Assembly (NCBI GenBank): GCA_020430245.1
Contig: JAGQKG010000016.1
Span: forward strand, 1-32,415
Reading direction: 5' to 3'
DNA: 32,415 nt
From: Nitrospira sp.
GTDB lineage: Bacteria > Nitrospirota > Nitrospiria > Nitrospirales > UBA8639
Shown piece after piece: positions 2,134 to 9,903 of the stretch; the first letter of the stretch is position 1; every line of letters starts with the position of its first letter. Made by a program: the position numbers and the translations under genes. The notes below the pieces were generated by a model. The model ran no database searches. It was not told the origin of the DNA and worked only from the letters and a program-made list of their open reading frames with translations.

Positions 2134-3744
2134 TTACGGCTTCTCCTTCATGAGCTTATACTCAATACTGTCGGCGAGGGCCTGCCAACTGGCTTCAATA
2201 ATATTCTCCGATACCCCGACCGTCCCCCATTTTTCCTTGTGATCCCCCGACTCAATCAGGACTCGCACACGAGAACCGGTTCCATGTCGCCCGGTCAACA
2301 CACGGACCTTATAGTCCAGAAGTTTGACTTCCTTTAACTGCGGATAGAAATGTTCCAGTGCTTTCCGAAGGGCATGATCGAGAGCATTTACCGGCCCATC
2401 ACCGACCGCCGCGGTATGTTCAACCACCTCTCCGACTTTGACCATAATCGTGGCTTCGGAAATAGGGTCTTCATTCGTTTTCCGTTTTTCCACAATGATC
2501 CGGCACCCCAGGAATTCGAAGGATGGGGTATAGGTCCCCATGGCTTTCCGCACTAACAATTCAAAAGACCCTTCTGCGCCTTCAAATTGGTAGCCTTCAT
2601 ATTCCAATGTTTTGAGGGAATCCAGTAATTCAAGGACCTTGGGATTATCCTGAGGAAGGTCCAGCCCGAAGGTTTCCATCTTTCCAAATACGGCACTTCG
2701 TCCACTGCTATCGGAAATGAGTACGCGGCGATGGTTTCCGACGATATCAGGATTCACATGTTCGTAGGTGAGCGGGTTTTTTTGCACCGCATGAATATGC
2801 ACCCCCCCCTTATGAGCAAACGCCGTATCTCCCACATAAGGCTGCCGTTTATTGGGAGTCAGATTAGCCATCTCAGCCACATAATGAGAAATGGCATGAA
2901 GGTGAGCCAAACGTCCATCCCCCAGGGCTGTTCGCTCCATTTTTAATTCCAAATTGGCCATAACGGAACACAGGTTGGCATTCCCGCACCGCTCTCCAAT
3001 GCCATTAATTGTTCCCTGGACCTGGATTGCTCCCGCTTGCACGGCGATCAAGGAATTGGCGACCCCCATCTCCGCATCATTGTGTGCGTGGATGCCTAAC
3101 GGCACAGAGCAGTTCTTGCGGATCTTCGCAAAGATCTCCCCGATATCCCAGGGCATCGTTCCTCCATTGGTGTCGCACAACACGATCCGCTCCGCCCCGG
3201 CTTCCGCCGCAGCGTGAATGGTTTTCATGGCGTAGGCGGGGTCCGTTTTATAGCCATCGAAAAAATGTTCGGCATCGTAAAAGACCTGCCGTCCCCTCGA
3301 CCGGAGATAGGAGATGGAATCGGCAATCAGCTCTAAATTGATTGCCAAGGTTGTTTCCAAGGCTTCCGTCACATGGAGGGTCCAACTTTTCCCAAAGATG
3401 GTCACAATATCCGTCTCAGCGGATAAGAGGGCTTCCAGTGTCGGATCGGCCTTTGCGGTATTTTTGGCTTTTCGCGTCGAACCAAATGCCACAATTTTCG
3501 CGTGCTGCAATGGAGTCGATTTCATGACTTGGAAAAACGCAATGTCCTTCGGGTTGGCTCCCGGCCACCCTCCTTCGATGAAATGCACTCCCAGTTCATC
3601 CAATTTAAGGGCGATACGCACCTTATCCTCCACCGAAAAGCTGACATCTTCGGCCTGAGCTCCATCTCGGAGGGTCGTATCATAGATTTCAATGACCGGA
3701 AATTGAGAATTCATCTCACGCATATGCCCTATCGGTGTATACAC
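2134..3744 (-). CDS. cimA: (R)-citramalate synthase
   Basis: This enzyme condenses pyruvate with acetyl-CoA to citramalate, the first step of a threonine-independent route to 2-oxobutyrate and isoleucine. The 536-aa product has the HMGL/LeuA TIM barrel: YDTTLRDGAQAEDVSFS near residue 20 with the catalytic Arg-Asp, HFIEGGWPGANPKD, the metal-binding GIHAHNDAEMGVAN near 218, and GGVHIHAV. A C-terminal LeuA-type allosteric domain (about 390-530) suggests feedback control. The EGGWPGANPKD pattern separates this CimA group from 2-isopropylmalate synthase. It is the last gene of the operon, starting eleven bases after lysC. The GTG at 3744 has a GGAG close upstream; ATG codons at 3723 and 3714 are alternative starts. 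Confidence 0.92.
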   Translation of the reverse strand: MYTPIGHMREMNSQFPVIEIYDTTLRDGAQAEDVSFSVEDKVRIALKLDELGVHFIEGGWPGANPKDIAFFQVMKSTPLQHAKIVAFGSTRKAKNTAKADPTLEALLSAETDIVTIFGKSWTLHVTEALETTLAINLELIADSISYLRSRGRQVFYDAEHFFDGYKTDPAYAMKTIHAAAEAGAERIVLCDTNGGTMPWDIGEIFAKIRKNCSVPLGIHAHNDAEMGVANSLIAVQAGAIQVQGTINGIGERCGNANLCSVMANLELKMERTALGDGRLAHLHAISHYVAEMANLTPNKRQPYVGDTAFAHKGGVHIHAVQKNPLTYEHVNPDIVGNHRRVLISDSSGRSAVFGKMETFGLDLPQDNPKVLELLDSLKTLEYEGYQFEGAEGSFELLVRKAMGTYTPSFEFLGCRIIVEKRKTNEDPISEATIMVKVGEVVEHTAAVGDGPVNALDHALRKALEHFYPQLKEVKLLDYKVRVLTGRHGTGSRVRVLIESGDHKEKWGTVGVSENIIEASWQALADSIEYKLMKEKP

Positions 3745-3755
3745 ACATCTCCATG

Positions 3756-4991
3756 CTAGGCCTTTCTGCTCCCAGGAGGAACTTCTAATTCAAATTCCTG
3801 GTGCAAGGCCCGAACAGCTAACTCCATGTATTTTTCTTCCACCACACAAGAGATTTTAATTTCCGAGGTACTGATCATCATGATATTAATGCCTTCACGT
3901 GAGAGGGTCTGAAACATTCTGGCTGCGACACCGGAATGCGAACGCATCCCCACTCCCACTAACGAAACTTTGGCAATGGATTCGTTCACCTCAACTGACC
4001 GGGCTTCCACCGATTTGGCAATTTCTTTGATAAGACCCATGCCACGGGTCAGATCAGCTCTCGGCACCGTGAAGGATATGTCCGTTAGGGAATCCTGACT
4101 CACATTTTGAATAATCATATCCACATTGATGGCGGCGTCGGCAATGGAGCAGAACAATGTGGCCGCAATCCCTGGGTGATCCGGGACCCCGACCACCGTG
4201 ACCTTGGCTTGATTCCGATCACCCGTGATCCCCGAGACTAAGACTTGTTCCATATCGTCATCCTCTTTTACCACGCAGGTTCCAGGCCCCTCTTGAAAAC
4301 TGGATCGCACTTCCACAGGTACCTGATATTTCGCAGCTAACTCTACCGAACGAGACTGTAGGACTTTAGCACCCAGACTCGCTAACTCTAACATTTCTTC
4401 ATAGGAGATTTTATCCAACCGTCTTGCGCCTGCCACAATATTGGGATCGGCAGTGTACACACCATCCACGTCGGTATAAATACAGCAGGTATCGGCCTTG
4501 AGCGCCGCCGCCAAGACTACGGCCGTCAAATCAGAGCCGCCGCGCCCTAACGTCGTCACATCGGAGGCGGCGTTGATACCTTGAAATCCGGCTACGATGG
4601 GAATAATTCCGTCACGTAAGGCCCCCAGCACCCGATCCGTATCCACACGGGAGACACGGGCTTTGGTATGCATGCTATCGGTGACAATCCCAACCTGACG
4701 TCCCGTAAAGGATTGCGCCCTGATCCCCAGACTTTTGAGGGTCATCGCCATCAACGCAATCGTGACCCGTTCTCCAGAAGAAAGTAACACATCCAGTTCC
4801 CGATCATCAGGATCGACGCTCAAGGTCTTGGCCATTTTCATGAGGCGGTCCGTTTCCCCGCTCATCGCGGACAACACGACCACCAATTGATGCCCCTCCC
4901 GGTAGGTGCGCTCAATAAGTCGAGCCACGTTTTGAATGCGTTCCAGGCTTCCCACTGATGTACCGCCGAATTTTTGAATGTACAGTGCCAT
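3756..4991 (-). CDS. lysC: Aspartate kinase
   Basis: It phosphorylates aspartate to aspartyl phosphate, the entry to lysine, threonine and methionine synthesis. The 411-aa length matches monofunctional bacterial aspartokinases. The kinase domain opens with [17 protein letters not shown] (from residue 7), and contains [17 protein letters not shown] and [14 protein letters not shown], the substrate and ATP site segments. Two ACT domains follow from about residue 265 ([16 protein letters not shown], then [19 protein letters not shown]), implying allosteric inhibition by lysine and/or threonine. It starts five bases after the stop of the ApgM-like gene and is followed by cimA eleven bases later, so it is read as part of the operon. 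The binding site before its ATG is weak, as expected with translational coupling. Confidence 0.97.
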
Positions 4992-4996
4992 AGGAC

Positions 4997-6232
4997 TTAG
5001 CGAGTGACCATAAATCGCTCGAACAGTTTGGTGGCATCACGGAGTTGGCGGGTGGCTACCTCTCGTTCATTCAATGGCACCGCATGATTTTCGGATTTTT
5101 CCCATGGCCCTTCAACCACCAGATAGGGCGATATGGAAGAACCTCCATCTTTCTGCCAATTCGGACACGGAGTAACCAGGACGACGATCCGGAGGGAGTC
5201 GTGGCTTCCAACAGACTGATGTATGGCTCCAATCACCTGGTCGTCCACTTGCTGAAGATATTCCACTAATTGTGAGGGTGGCACCGCCTGTCCATCCTTC
5301 AATCCCCACTCGGAAAAGGGAATGTGCAGGCAGACCAGGTCATGTTTGTCCAACGCAGCCGAAGCTTTATTGGCCATGGTCTGTAACCAGATGATATCTC
5401 CCTCTGCCACATGTTCAACCTTGACTGTCTGAAGTCCCGCGGCCATTCCAACACCGACATACGGCCCATCGGGCGAAATCACGATACCGTTGACTGGCCA
5501 CCGCTCATGTAACCGAGGCAATTCTACAGGTTTTCCTGATCCCCACAACCATAGACAATTGGCCGGCTTCAACCCGGCATTGAGGCGATCATGGTTCACA
5601 GGGTGATGACAGAGGATGGCCCTAGAAGCCGCCATGAGTTCACGTAGGATTTGCGATCCATCACCGGTAGGCAGATACGCCTCGATCGACTGTCCTAAAG
5701 CCTCGTATGGGTTGCGACAGGCCACTTTCCCGCTCGCCCCCACCCAGACCATAAGATGCCGATAATGGCTACCCATGTAAAATTGAATATTTTCAGAAAC
5801 CAATTGTTCATTGACGGCGTCAATGAGTTCTCGAGCGTCCTCAGTCCCGATTCCTCCGCCAAAGGGGTCGGCCATAAATAACTGGGGACCAAATTTTTTC
5901 TCATCCCCCCATCCATCCTGACCCCGGAGAGTCACCAAATGACAAAGATAGGCCACATCATGGGCGTCCAGAACAACCTCTAAGCCCCCTGCCTCAAAGG
6001 CACCAGGGCCGGTATACCATTTGTGTGGATCGTATCCTAATAAAGCAAGCAGGGCCAGTTCCCCGCAAAAGGGACGGGTTTCTCGGGGAACCCCTAAGCG
6101 TCCCAGCTCACCATGCCCCGCCAATTCATCCAGGTGCGGTGTCCGAGCCGATTGCAAGACGGTTTGGTCTCCTAATTCCTGATATGACTGTCCCGTCAAT
6201 CCATCGACGTGAATCACGATCGTTTTTCGCAC
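4997..6232 (-). CDS. Degenerate ApgM-like protein in the homoserine kinase slot
   Basis: The fold family is recognisable as archaeal-type cofactor-independent phosphoglycerate mutase (alkaline phosphatase superfamily). Signs are a [12 protein letters not shown] opening, [36 protein letters not shown], and [13 protein letters not shown] followed by [20 protein letters not shown]. Homologues in threonine operons of bacteria without ThrB have been proposed as homoserine kinases (TIGR02535, from memory), and this gene lies between thrC and lysC. Oddly, most expected metal and catalytic residues look replaced. The serine of the family's GSDTAHL is Gly or Cys (PFCGELALL), the Asp/His of DEAGH become Ser/Leu (PFSEWGL), and the Asp-His of DHPTP is gone (VTPCPNW). 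The GTG at 6232 is preferred for its GAGG and because it starts at the conserved strand. A TTG at 6274 would add fourteen unconserved residues. Confidence 0.8.
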
Positions 6233-6305: not shown

Positions 6306-7367
6306 TTAGGGATTGGTTAATTGGGCTCTGACCGCTTCATGTGTTGCAGGAACCGTGACGGGTCGATAGGAGACCGAGATGGCCGTATCCGGATCTTTTA
6401 ACCCGTGTCCGGTTAAGGTACACACAATGTCCCCCTCTTTCGGCAACAACCCGGCGCGATTCATTTTATCAATTCCTGCAAGAGAGGCCGCGGAAGCGGG
6501 CTCGCAAAAAACCCCTTCTTCACTCGCCACCATTTGATACGCTCGAAGAATTTCTTCGTCCGACACCATATCCAGGTATCCGTGTGATTCCTCCACCGCT
6601 TCCAAGGCCAAACACCAACTGGCCGGATTGCCAATCCGAATAGCTGAAGCAATGGTTTTCGGCTCCTCCACGACATGACCCCTGACCAAGGGCGCCGCTC
6701 CTTCCGCTTGAAACCCAAACATACGAGGCAACCCTTGCGTTTGTCCGGCCTTGTGGTACTCCCGATATCCTCGCCAATACGCCGTAATATTCCCAGCGTT
6801 CCCTACCGGCAGGGCATGAATGACCGGTGCATACCCCAACTGATCGCAAATTTCCATGGCGGCCGTTTTTTGGCCTTCTAAACGAAACGGGTTAATTGAA
6901 TTGACCAATTCAATGGCGGTTTCCTCGCACAAATCTTTTACGATCGTTAAGGCCTGATCAAAGTTTCCCTCAATCTGAATGACTCGAGCCCCATGCATGA
7001 GGGCCTGCGTCAACTTACCTAACGCGATATTTCCTGCCGGCACGACCACATACACCGGCAGCCCTGCTTTGGCCCCATAGGCTGCTGCGGAAGCGGAGGT
7101 GTTGCCGGTCGAGGCACACATGAGTCCCCGAGCCTTGTTTTCCAGGGCTTTAGAAACCGCCATGGTCATCCCCCGGTCCTTAAAGGAACCCGTTGGATTG
7201 GCTCCTTCTATCTTCAGATACAGACCCAGGCCGGGACAAATTTTCCCGGCCAAGCGCTTTGCCGGAATGAGTGGGGTATTTCCCTCTAGTAGTGACACGA
7301 TCGGAGTCTGCTCTCCCACCGGGAGAAATTTCCGATATTCCTCGATAATGCCACGCCAAGGAATCAT
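6306..7367 (-). CDS. thrC: Threonine synthase
   Basis: A PLP enzyme that converts O-phosphohomoserine to threonine. With the ATG at 7367 the protein has 353 aa, the size of the short bacterial ThrC. The PLP lysine is in ANPTGSFKDRGM (about residue 63), CASTGNTSASAAAYGAKAGL is the phosphate/PLP-binding loop, and the end of the domain has VFCEPASAASLAGI and CTLTGHGLKDPD. The ATG at 7367 has AAGGGGG ten bases upstream, whereas a TTG at 7394 has no binding site. It lies about 40 bases after hom and 73 bases before the ApgM-like gene. Its presence implies that the organism makes phosphohomoserine, yet no classical ThrB is seen in this operon. Confidence 0.96.
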   Translation of the reverse strand: MIPWRGIIEEYRKFLPVGEQTPIVSLLEGNTPLIPAKRLAGKICPGLGLYLKIEGANPTGSFKDRGMTMAVSKALENKARGLMCASTGNTSASAAAYGAKAGLPVYVVVPAGNIALGKLTQALMHGARVIQIEGNFDQALTIVKDLCEETAIELVNSINPFRLEGQKTAAMEICDQLGYAPVIHALPVGNAGNITAYWRGYREYHKAGQTQGLPRMFGFQAEGAAPLVRGHVVEEPKTIASAIRIGNPASWCLALEAVEESHGYLDMVSDEEILRAYQMVASEEGVFCEPASAASLAGIDKMNRAGLLPKEGDIVCTLTGHGLKDPDTAISVSYRPVTVPATHEAVRAQLTNP

Positions 7368-7408
7368 AATGGAATATCCCCCTTCGTGACGCAATTTGGG
7401 TTCATTTA

Positions 7409-8719
7409 TTATTCCACCCCTTCCATACGAAGTAACGTCGTTGGCTCTGATACCATGGGAAGTGCATTAATTTCCTGGAGTGCCAATTGAACTCCTCGCT
7501 CTATCGAGCGATGCGTCAATATGACCAATGGCACGGTTTGGCCTTCCTTTCGCCCCTTTTGGAGAACGGACGAGATGCTGATCCCACGTTGCCCAAGAAT
7601 CCCTGATATGGCCGACAGAACCCCAGGCTGATCCTTGACCATGCACCGCAAATAATACCGGCTTTCAATGTCGTCCATCGGTTTTATATCAATGGGCGCC
7701 CGCGATTCCCATCGGAAAGAGGTCAGAGGAACCCGTCCGGCAACCCCAGCAATGCGATTCCGTGCCAGATCGATAATGTCCCCCACCACCGCGCTGGCTG
7801 TTGGGAGCGATCCAGCCCCTTTGCCGTAAAGCACAATATCCCCTACCGCATCCCCAATGAGATGAATGGCATTGTAGACTCCATTCACCTGTGCAATGGG
7901 AGACCCGGCCGGCACCAGGGTGGGATGCACTCGTGCCTCAATGGCATGCTCTTGAAGCTTGGCGATTCCCAGCAATTTAACGGTAAACCCAAATTCACGG
8001 GCAAACTCAATATCCAGCGTCGAAATATGGGAAATACCTTCGGTAAAGATGGCTCGCATGGGCACGGGAGTCCCATACGCAAGATTCACCATGATGGCCA
8101 ATTTGTGAGCCGCATCCACGCCATCAACATCCAATGACGGGTCCGCCTCCGCATAACCCTCCCGCTTAGCTTCCAGTAAAATCTTGTTAAAATCACGGTG
8201 TTCATTGGTCATCCGAGTCAGAATATAATTGGATGTGCCGTTCATAATCCCCGTAATGGACACCATCCGATTCGCCGCTAACCCTTCGGTGAGCGATCGG
8301 ATGATAGGGATGCCTCCCCCGACACTCGCTTCAAACCCGAGATCAACACCTGCCTTGAATGCCGCCTCAAAAATTTCTTCGCCATGATCGGCCAACAAGG
8401 CTTTATTCGCCGTTACCACGCACTTTTTGCGTTCAAGCGCCTGAAGAATAAACTGTTTGGCCGGCTCATGCCCGCCAATCAATTCCACGATAATATCAAT
8501 AGCAGGATCATCCAGGATATCCCGAATATCCGTCGTCATCACTCCTTGAGGCACCGAGACTCCACGATCCGTTGTGATGTCCAGGTCCGCAATCCGCGCA
8601 AGCGATACCGGAACTCCGACCCGTTTGGTGATGAGACTGGCATTCTCCTGAAGGATCTTCACTGTTCCTGTTCCCACGGTGCCAAATCCGATTAACCCGA
8701 CCTGGATAGCCTTTCGCAT
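7409..8719 (-). CDS. hom: Homoserine dehydrogenase
   Basis: Reduces aspartate semialdehyde to homoserine with NAD(P)H. The 436-aa product has an N-terminal Rossmann motif (VGLIGFGTVGTGTVKIL). Next come the catalytic segments TANKALLADHGEEIFEAAF, FEASVGGGIPIIRSLTEGL, MNGTSNYILTRM and EAKREGYAEADPSLDVDGVDAAHKL. A C-terminal ACT domain (from about residue 350, YYLRCMVKDQPGVLSAIS) is probably the threonine sensor. The ATG at 8719 overlaps the alaC stop codon and has GGAG seven bases upstream. A GTG three bases earlier is the only close alternative. The overlap indicates translational coupling with alaC. Confidence 0.97.
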   Translation of the reverse strand: MRKAIQVGLIGFGTVGTGTVKILQENASLITKRVGVPVSLARIADLDITTDRGVSVPQGVMTTDIRDILDDPAIDIIVELIGGHEPAKQFILQALERKKCVVTANKALLADHGEEIFEAAFKAGVDLGFEASVGGGIPIIRSLTEGLAANRMVSITGIMNGTSNYILTRMTNEHRDFNKILLEAKREGYAEADPSLDVDGVDAAHKLAIMVNLAYGTPVPMRAIFTEGISHISTLDIEFAREFGFTVKLLGIAKLQEHAIEARVHPTLVPAGSPIAQVNGVYNAIHLIGDAVGDIVLYGKGAGSLPTASAVVGDIIDLARNRIAGVAGRVPLTSFRWESRAPIDIKPMDDIESRYYLRCMVKDQPGVLSAISGILGQRGISISSVLQKGRKEGQTVPLVILTHRSIERGVQLALQEINALPMVSEPTTLLRMEGVE

Positions 8720-9903
8720 CACAGTTCTCCATCCAACTTTAAGGCCTGACGGATTCCTCTGACGGCCTGAAAAATTCGGTGCTCATTTTCGACTAGCGCA
8801 AAGCGAACATAGTCATCGCCCCCTTCTCCAAATCCTATCCCTGGTGACACCGCAACTTTGGCCTCTCGTAATAATAACTTGGAAAACTCCAATGATCCCA
8901 TTCCGAGGTAGGGTTGTGGGATTTTTGCCCAGGCAAACATCGTGGCGCGAGGATAGTCAATCGGCCAACCAATGCGGTTGAGTCCGCGGACCAGAGCATT
9001 GCGCCGTCGCTCATATCGTCCCACAATTTCCTTGACGCAATCCTGCTGACCATTCAGGGCTATAATACTGGCAATTTGAATTGGCTGGAACATGCCATAA
9101 TCCAGGTAACTTTTGATCTTGGTCAACGCCCCAATGACCTCACGATTCCCGACACAGAATCCTACTCGCCAACCCGGCATATTATAACTCTTCGAGAGGG
9201 AATAAAATTCCACGCCAATCTGTTTGGCTTCAGGAATTTGAAGAAGGCTGGGTGCCTTATACCCATCGAACACGATATCGGCATAGGCCAAATCATGAAT
9301 GACCCAGACTTGGTGTTCCAGAGCAAACTCCACCACCTTTTTAAAGAACTCCAGATCAACCACCCGGGTGGTTGGATTATGAGGAAAACTGATGATCAAC
9401 GCCCGAGGAGCCGGTTGCGTCTGCTTAAAGGCCTTTTTCAGGTTTTCAAAAAAATCAGAATCAGGCCCGAGTTCAACCCCACGGACTTCTCCGCCCGCAA
9501 TGACCACACTGTACATATGAATCGGATACGTCGGAGACGGGGCCAAAACCACGTCACCCGGGCCCACCATGGCCAGGGCCAAATGCGCCAACCCTTCTTT
9601 CACCCCCAGGGTCACAATCGCTTCTGTTTCCGGATCGAGATTGACCTCATAATTTCGCTGATACCAATCGCAGATCGCATGACGCAATTTGGTAATGCCC
9701 CGTGAAGCCGAATACCGATGATTGCGCCCGAGTCGCGCGGTCTCAATCAATTTGTCTACAATATGACGGGGTGTGGGCTGGTCGGGATTGCCCATGCCTA
9801 AATCAATGATATCTTCTCCCCGCTTCCGGGCTTGGAGTTTTAACTCTTGAACCTGGGAGAAGACGTATCCTGGCAGTCGTTGAATTCGGTAAAAAGGTTC
9901 CAT
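8719..9903 (-). CDS. alaC: Alanine transaminase, AlaC type
   Basis: A class I/II PLP aminotransferase of 394 aa. It matches the AlaC pattern closely: [67 protein letters not shown] and [17 protein letters not shown], where Lys 238 is the PLP lysine. The C-terminal [20 protein letters not shown] carries the carboxylate-binding Arg. AlaC makes alanine from pyruvate and glutamate; a broader specificity or an LL-diaminopimelate role is possible for related enzymes. It is the first gene of the operon and overlaps hom. The ATG at 9903 has no strong binding site. A consensus promoter and two palindromes lie in the 100 bases upstream. Confidence 0.9.

Follow-up and report, generated by a model that had tools for sequence, protein, structure and literature searches.

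The window analysed here is a stretch of 32,415 nucleotides from a Nitrospira sp. MAG of the order Nitrospirales, which has the isolates UBA8639 and NPIRA03/NPIRA06 among its named relatives; Nitrospira defluvii belongs to a second family of the same order. The threonine operon of this genome is encoded on the minus strand in the conserved order aminotransferase-hom-thrC-X-lysC-cimA, where X is an ApgM-like gene. The operon begins with a class I/II aminotransferase gene (8719-9903), followed by hom (7409-8722), encoding homoserine dehydrogenase with an ACT domain, and by thrC (6306-7394), the product of which is a canonical threonine synthase (TIGR00260, 308.8 bits versus a cut-off of 167.1; full-length alignment with PDB 1uim/1v7c). 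Gene X (4997-6232) is separated by 5 bases from lysC (3756-4991), encoding aspartate kinase, and the last gene, cimA (2134-3744), encodes citramalate synthase (TIGR00977, 774.3 bits versus 450). The coordinates thus agree with the initial annotation, which had placed X between thrC and lysC, and in the order members examined its orthologs are always located in the threonine operon. The window also contains a gene for a MerR-type regulator (1266-1628), which most of the order members examined likewise have next to their threonine operon, with a tRNA gene (1143-1216) adjoining it on the same strand.

The open reading frame of X stops at 4997 and may start either at TTG 6274 (425 amino acids) or at GTG 6232 (411 amino acids), the latter fitting the conserved MKxxxxxDG beginning more closely. 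The protein matches PF10143 (122.3 bits, 2.6e-35), and stays below the cut-offs of the Metalloenzyme domain PF01676 (12.4 versus 24.3 bits), of TIGR02535, the proposed homoserine kinase ThrB2 (238.7 versus 446.3 bits), and of TIGR00306, apgM (244.5 versus 320 bits). An AlphaFold2 model based on 69 aligned sequences (pLDDT 91.4, pTM 0.91) predicts a well folded protein, and the top Foldseek match of the model is the archaeal phosphoglycerate mutase (PGM) PH0037 (2zkt, E 5.5e-27). The protein therefore possesses the PF10143 domain together with the ApgM fold, as the ApgM family requires, and the ApgM-like identity proposed at the outset is borne out by the domain match and by the fold match with the archaeal PGM. 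Its location in the threonine operon of a genome without ThrB is the context that characterizes ThrB2.

In the iPGM of Bacillus stearothermophilus one metal is liganded by D12, S62, D444 and H445, and the other by D403, H407 and H462. When the window protein was aligned with relatives retaining all seven ligands (loci L005, L006 and L014), a single canonical metal/phosphate ligand out of seven was recovered, D10, the Asp of the DG motif (6203-6205, minus strand as for all positions below). The phosphorylated catalytic Ser is replaced by G57 (6062-6064). Residues 307-315, SEWGLKDGQ (5288-5314), stand in place of the DEA(G/S)H motif, with both ligands gone and three residues inserted; T354-P355 (5168-5173), in a stretch reading VTPCP, replace the Asp-His of DHPTP, and residues 363-364 (GG, 5141-5146) occupy the position of the last His, where THT reads DGGSS. 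The alignment with intact relatives confirms what had been suspected from the sequence, i.e. replacement of the catalytic Ser and of the DEAGH and DHPTP ligands with retention of the first Asp, and metal ligands were not recovered at shifted positions in any alignment row. Among 17 distinct sequences from the genus of the window, D1 is Asp, the Ser position is Gly and D2 is Thr in all 17, and the other four ligand positions lack the canonical residue. Such conservation, in these 17 sequences and in the whole order, excludes sequencing error or chance as the cause.

Among 101 distinct Nitrospirales proteins, never more than five of the seven ligands are found together. Two sequences have the canonical last His (99 have lost it) and 64 keep D1, which is absent from many Nitrospira proteins; these per-ligand counts are approximate, since parts of the C-terminal half could not be aligned with certainty, whereas the absence of the full set in every sequence is firm. 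The losses form a mosaic and are recurrent, with several independent losses of each ligand on the tree of thrC, lysC and hom. The N. defluvii protein (FP929003, locus L186), an ortholog in the same operon slot with a conserved lid and approximately 40% identity, keeps five of the seven ligands (Pro stands in place of H2 and Ser in place of the last His), scores 334 bits against TIGR02535, below the 446.3-bit cut-off, and passes TIGR00306 (352 versus 320 bits). On this comparison the N. defluvii copy appears to represent an earlier stage of the loss, and proteins of its group, with five of seven ligands, might be able to bind one metal.

The ApgM-like gene shows dN/dS of 0.07-0.27, about two to five times the values of its neighbors (0.00-0.09 for the aminotransferase gene, hom, thrC, lysC and cimA) and far below 1, all these being simple Nei-Gojobori estimates with dS near saturation in some pairs. 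The constraint is unevenly distributed. The insertion (lid) domain, residues 86-245 (5498-5977), is strongly conserved, with dN/dS of 0.04-0.16 and the lowest column entropy (minimum at residues 121-160 and 221-240), and the C-terminal metalloenzyme half, residues 246-411 (5000-5497), is diverging, with dN/dS mostly of 0.13-0.36 and of 0.70 in one close pair. Across lineages the C-terminal half is 17-44% identical where the lid is 51-71% identical. In pairs of intact proteins the lid and the C-terminal half display 80 versus 79, 52 versus 49 and 55 versus 48% identity, and in pairs of degenerate ones 69 versus 38, 57 versus 17 and 52 versus 25%. The retained lid pocket includes RHLMVW (158-163; 5744-5761) and HPVN..R..G.KPAN..W.WG (210-231; 5540-5605). 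Its residues N141, F151, Y152, H159, W163, N213, R216 and W228 are invariant, R158 and W230 nearly so (both are changed in one family, f7), and intact TIGR02535 proteins have the same set. Archaeal PGMs carry an Arg at the position of W230, and Trp is present here also in threonine-operon proteins. Outside the lid H303 and D330 are invariant. In iPGM structures the lid faces the substrate, so the substrate-facing part, in the form proper to the threonine-operon subgroup, has been kept and the phosphate-transfer machinery lost.

The distribution of homoserine kinases was surveyed in 113 Nitrospirales genomes and 34 members of the class outside the order. ThrB (GHMP, TIGR00191) scored over its cut-off in 32 of the latter 34, and in the two exceptions (G003 and G007) thrC and lysC flank a gene for a ligand-complete TIGR02535 protein. 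Over the respective cut-offs, ThrB was found in none of the 113 Nitrospirales genomes and ThrB_alt (APH-type, TIGR00938) in none of the 147 genomes of the class. The window genome is 88% complete, and two single-contig genomes of the same genus (100% and 98% complete) agree with it in having no recognized kinase. The initial annotation had proposed a search of the genome for thrB; neither ThrB nor ThrB_alt was detected over the cut-off in the window genome or in the order, and the order-wide absence of known homoserine kinases had not been foreseen. Failure of the family models is compatible with a divergent homoserine kinase in the order and does not prove the absence of one. One order member, G138, encodes a thrB product 0.6 bit short of the cut-off (167.7 versus 168.25 bits). 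It belongs to an additional hom-thrC-thrB set, accompanied by a divergent lysC (L143, G138:C1:1340000-1351000, Nitrospiraceae), probably acquired, and the main threonine operon of this genome (L142) also retains a strongly eroded ApgM-like copy.

Several other proteins were considered as sources of the activity and rejected. The three GHMP matches in the window genome are IspE, encoded beside prs, and two sugar-kinase-like proteins. The one APH kinase common to all ten tested genomes resembles AmgK and is a poor candidate for the replacement because it is also present in lineages with an intact TIGR02535 protein; at its loci (L239-L248, all ten class genomes tested) a nucleotidyltransferase-sized open reading frame adjoins in most cases, possibly as an AmgK-MurU pair for cell-wall recycling. 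Other alkaline-phosphatase-superfamily proteins of the window genome have no PF01676 match. Another ThrC-like protein, which shares about 36% identity with the operon ThrC, is encoded in a conserved sulfur-carrier cluster that contains no kinase (L234:4677-10044 of G143:C1, also L233 and L235-L238). The genes of this cluster, named by eye, are ThiS-like, CysK/M, two MoeB-like, MoaD-like, NIL-domain-like and JAMM-protease-like. Together they resemble a protein-thiocarboxylate route to cysteine or homocysteine, in which the ThrC-like protein may act on O-phosphoserine or on O-phosphohomoserine. The operon ThrC itself aligns with 463 bits to 2zsj and 447 bits to the Thermus thermophilus enzyme and conserves the NS.NP.R and GNAGN stretches, and the residues around the substrate phosphate are retained. 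As a normal threonine synthase is present, O-phosphohomoserine is very probably still the intermediate of the pathway. No paper was found in which a homoserine kinase is assigned in Nitrospira or Leptospirillum.

In two sister families without thrB, the gene between thrC and lysC encodes a ligand-complete TIGR02535 protein (539 and 541 bits). In the phylum 141 of 296 genomes encode a protein above the TIGR02535 cut-off, hence the intact protein is probably ancestral. Judged by the same operon slot and the ligand-complete relatives in sister families, the window protein evidently descends from the TIGR02535 family. Most Nitrospirales genomes with a match carry a full-length open reading frame. 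The gene has been cleanly deleted in two genera of the family of the window (f1-g2 and f1-g4) and in family f4, where the operon is otherwise intact and nothing has been inserted between thrC and lysC. In genome G094 (L042:7800-9000) a frameshift and several stops have made it a pseudogene, flanked by an intact thrC and an intact lysC. Known homoserine kinases were not recognized in the gene-deleted lineages or in G094. The protein therefore cannot by itself account for O-phosphohomoserine formation throughout the order, unless those lineages have acquired yet another, unknown enzyme. Family f7 encodes a normal thrB together with a full-length ApgM-like protein of the threonine operon that has none of the seven ligands, and family f12 encodes thrB together with, in most members, a partly eroded ApgM-like copy (loci of both families L046-L048, L008-L012 and L017); thrB is located elsewhere, and the copy at L047 is degenerate and full-length. 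Retention of dead copies more than once, even beside a known kinase in f7, favors a non-catalytic role, although R158 and W230 of the lid are altered in f7.

Three other readings of the gene have to be weighed. Automatic annotation suggests a glycolytic phosphoglycerate mutase, and an archaeal PGM is indeed the best fold match, with the N. defluvii copy passing the TIGR00306 cut-off. Such a function is barely credible for a protein that fails TIGR00306, lacks the catalytic Ser and the metal ligands and has Trp (W230) for the Arg of archaeal PGMs, as threonine-operon proteins do; the gene is always in the threonine operon, and dPGM scores over its cut-off in the window genome and in all tested order members. 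The gene might instead be vestigial, its catalysis having become redundant after another kinase arose, so that it is now functionless and being slowly lost inside the operon. Deletion in three lineages, breakage in G094, the recurrent independent ligand losses and the fast C-terminal half with its one close pair at 0.70 are what such decay would produce, but the low dN/dS of the gene, and of the lid in particular, has been maintained over long divergence, full-length frames persist in most genomes with a match, the lid pocket is almost invariant across families, and f7 has independently retained a dead copy beside a normal thrB. We regard functionless decay as rather improbable.

The third reading assumes that the protein is still a homoserine kinase working without the two-metal center, through a new active site built from R158, N213 and R216 of the lid with D10, H303 and D330. 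The operon slot is that expected for the kinase, the order has no other recognized homoserine kinase, the pocket residues are common to intact TIGR02535 proteins, and H303 and D330 are invariant; these two residues could take part in a different catalytic arrangement, which is a point against a pseudoenzyme. Nevertheless, with D1 present in only 64 of 101 sequences there is no common set of acidic metal ligands, the diverging half is the former catalytic one, genomes with the gene deleted or broken also lack the known kinases, and a similar dead copy in f7 coexists with a true thrB. A new active site is on balance quite improbable. Of the three options offered in the initial annotation, the new active site is the one weakened, because in some members the gene has been deleted or broken and no known kinase has been gained, and the other two, a regulatory pseudoenzyme and a kinase step encoded elsewhere, fit jointly, because the site is lost, the gene is constrained and relatives lacking it keep the threonine operon.

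Sequence comparisons demonstrate the descent from TIGR02535, the loss of the metal/phospho-Ser center across the order, purifying selection concentrated on the lid and the lack of a recognized kinase. Catalytic residues lost under purifying selection are the hallmark of a pseudoenzyme, and we infer a non-catalytic role for the ApgM-like protein. It is probably a pseudoenzyme derived from the ThrB2 family and kept for ligand binding or control of a partner, with homoserine phosphorylated by an as yet unidentified enzyme encoded elsewhere. An enzyme of this kind would have assumed the phosphorylation of homoserine no later than the base of the order, thereby freeing the old catalytic site of the ThrB2-derived protein. 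The lid pocket may still bind homoserine, O-phosphohomoserine or another aspartate-family metabolite, and the retained protein would serve as sensor, regulator or scaffold, its possible targets being the operon neighbors LysC and ThrC or the kinase, with the gene broken or deleted in lineages not needing the regulatory role. Several lineages do without the gene, and its proposed role is thus not essential everywhere. The more specific version, in which an undiscovered kinase unrelated to ThrB, ThrB_alt and active TIGR02535 proteins is accompanied by the dead ThrB2 as its metabolite-binding regulator or subunit, or that of LysC or ThrC, has somewhat less than an even chance of being correct.

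Nitrospira and its relatives are major nitrite oxidizers and comammox organisms, and their threonine pathway has no assignable homoserine kinase, a gap hidden by automatic annotation of the gene as phosphoglycerate mutase. The order offers a natural series of intact, partly lost, fully lost, broken and deleted genes, which makes it possible to test whether TIGR02535 proteins are homoserine kinases and what replaces them. A pathway gap should not be filled by TIGR02535 homology alone. The occurrence of a PGM gene next to that for aspartokinase has been observed earlier without explanation (PMC6327494), and no report of TIGR02535 inactivation in Nitrospirales was found in the literature consulted. 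The Nitrospirales proteins would form a branch of pseudoenzymes within a known family, and discovery of the missing kinase would be more novel.

The closest known system is that of TIGR02535/ThrB2 proteins such as BT2402 of Bacteroides thetaiotaomicron, which have the fold, the PF10143 domain and the threonine-operon context in common with the window protein; the lid pocket motifs, including W.WG.G, are likewise common to it and the intact TIGR02535 members of the phylum. TIGR02535 is a published candidate homoserine kinase, the support being genetic and not biochemical (PMC7311316, PMC9026213): BT2402 is needed for growth without threonine, although it did not rescue an Escherichia coli thrB mutant and its kinase activity is unproven (PMC7311316). 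Zinc sites of BT2402 are fully conserved (PMC9765024), so the metal site that the initial annotation expected in ApgM-like homoserine kinases is indeed kept in BT2402 and in the sister families but not in Nitrospirales, where the window protein, at 239 bits against the 446-bit cut-off, has lost six of the seven ligands. Archaeal ApgM (PH0037, 2zkt; Thermoplasma acidophilum, 3idd/3kd8) is the closest solved fold, from which the window protein differs by the lack of the metal/phospho-Ser center and by Trp for the Arg of the R.AG motif, and its operon context and the presence of dPGM oppose glycolytic use. PhpG (CMP-5'-phosphonoformate:3-phosphoglycerate transferase, NF038358) shares the ApgM fold and shows that the family can change its chemistry. 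A true PhpG (570 bits versus the cut-off of 545) is encoded in a genome of the same genus (L039:8505-9797, G143:C1:1139630 region) in an apparent phosphonate biosynthesis cluster, as the second PF10143 match of that genome and unrelated to threonine. Unlike the window protein, PhpG retains the Ser and the DEAGH/DH ligands and belongs to a phosphonate gene cluster rather than to a threonine operon.
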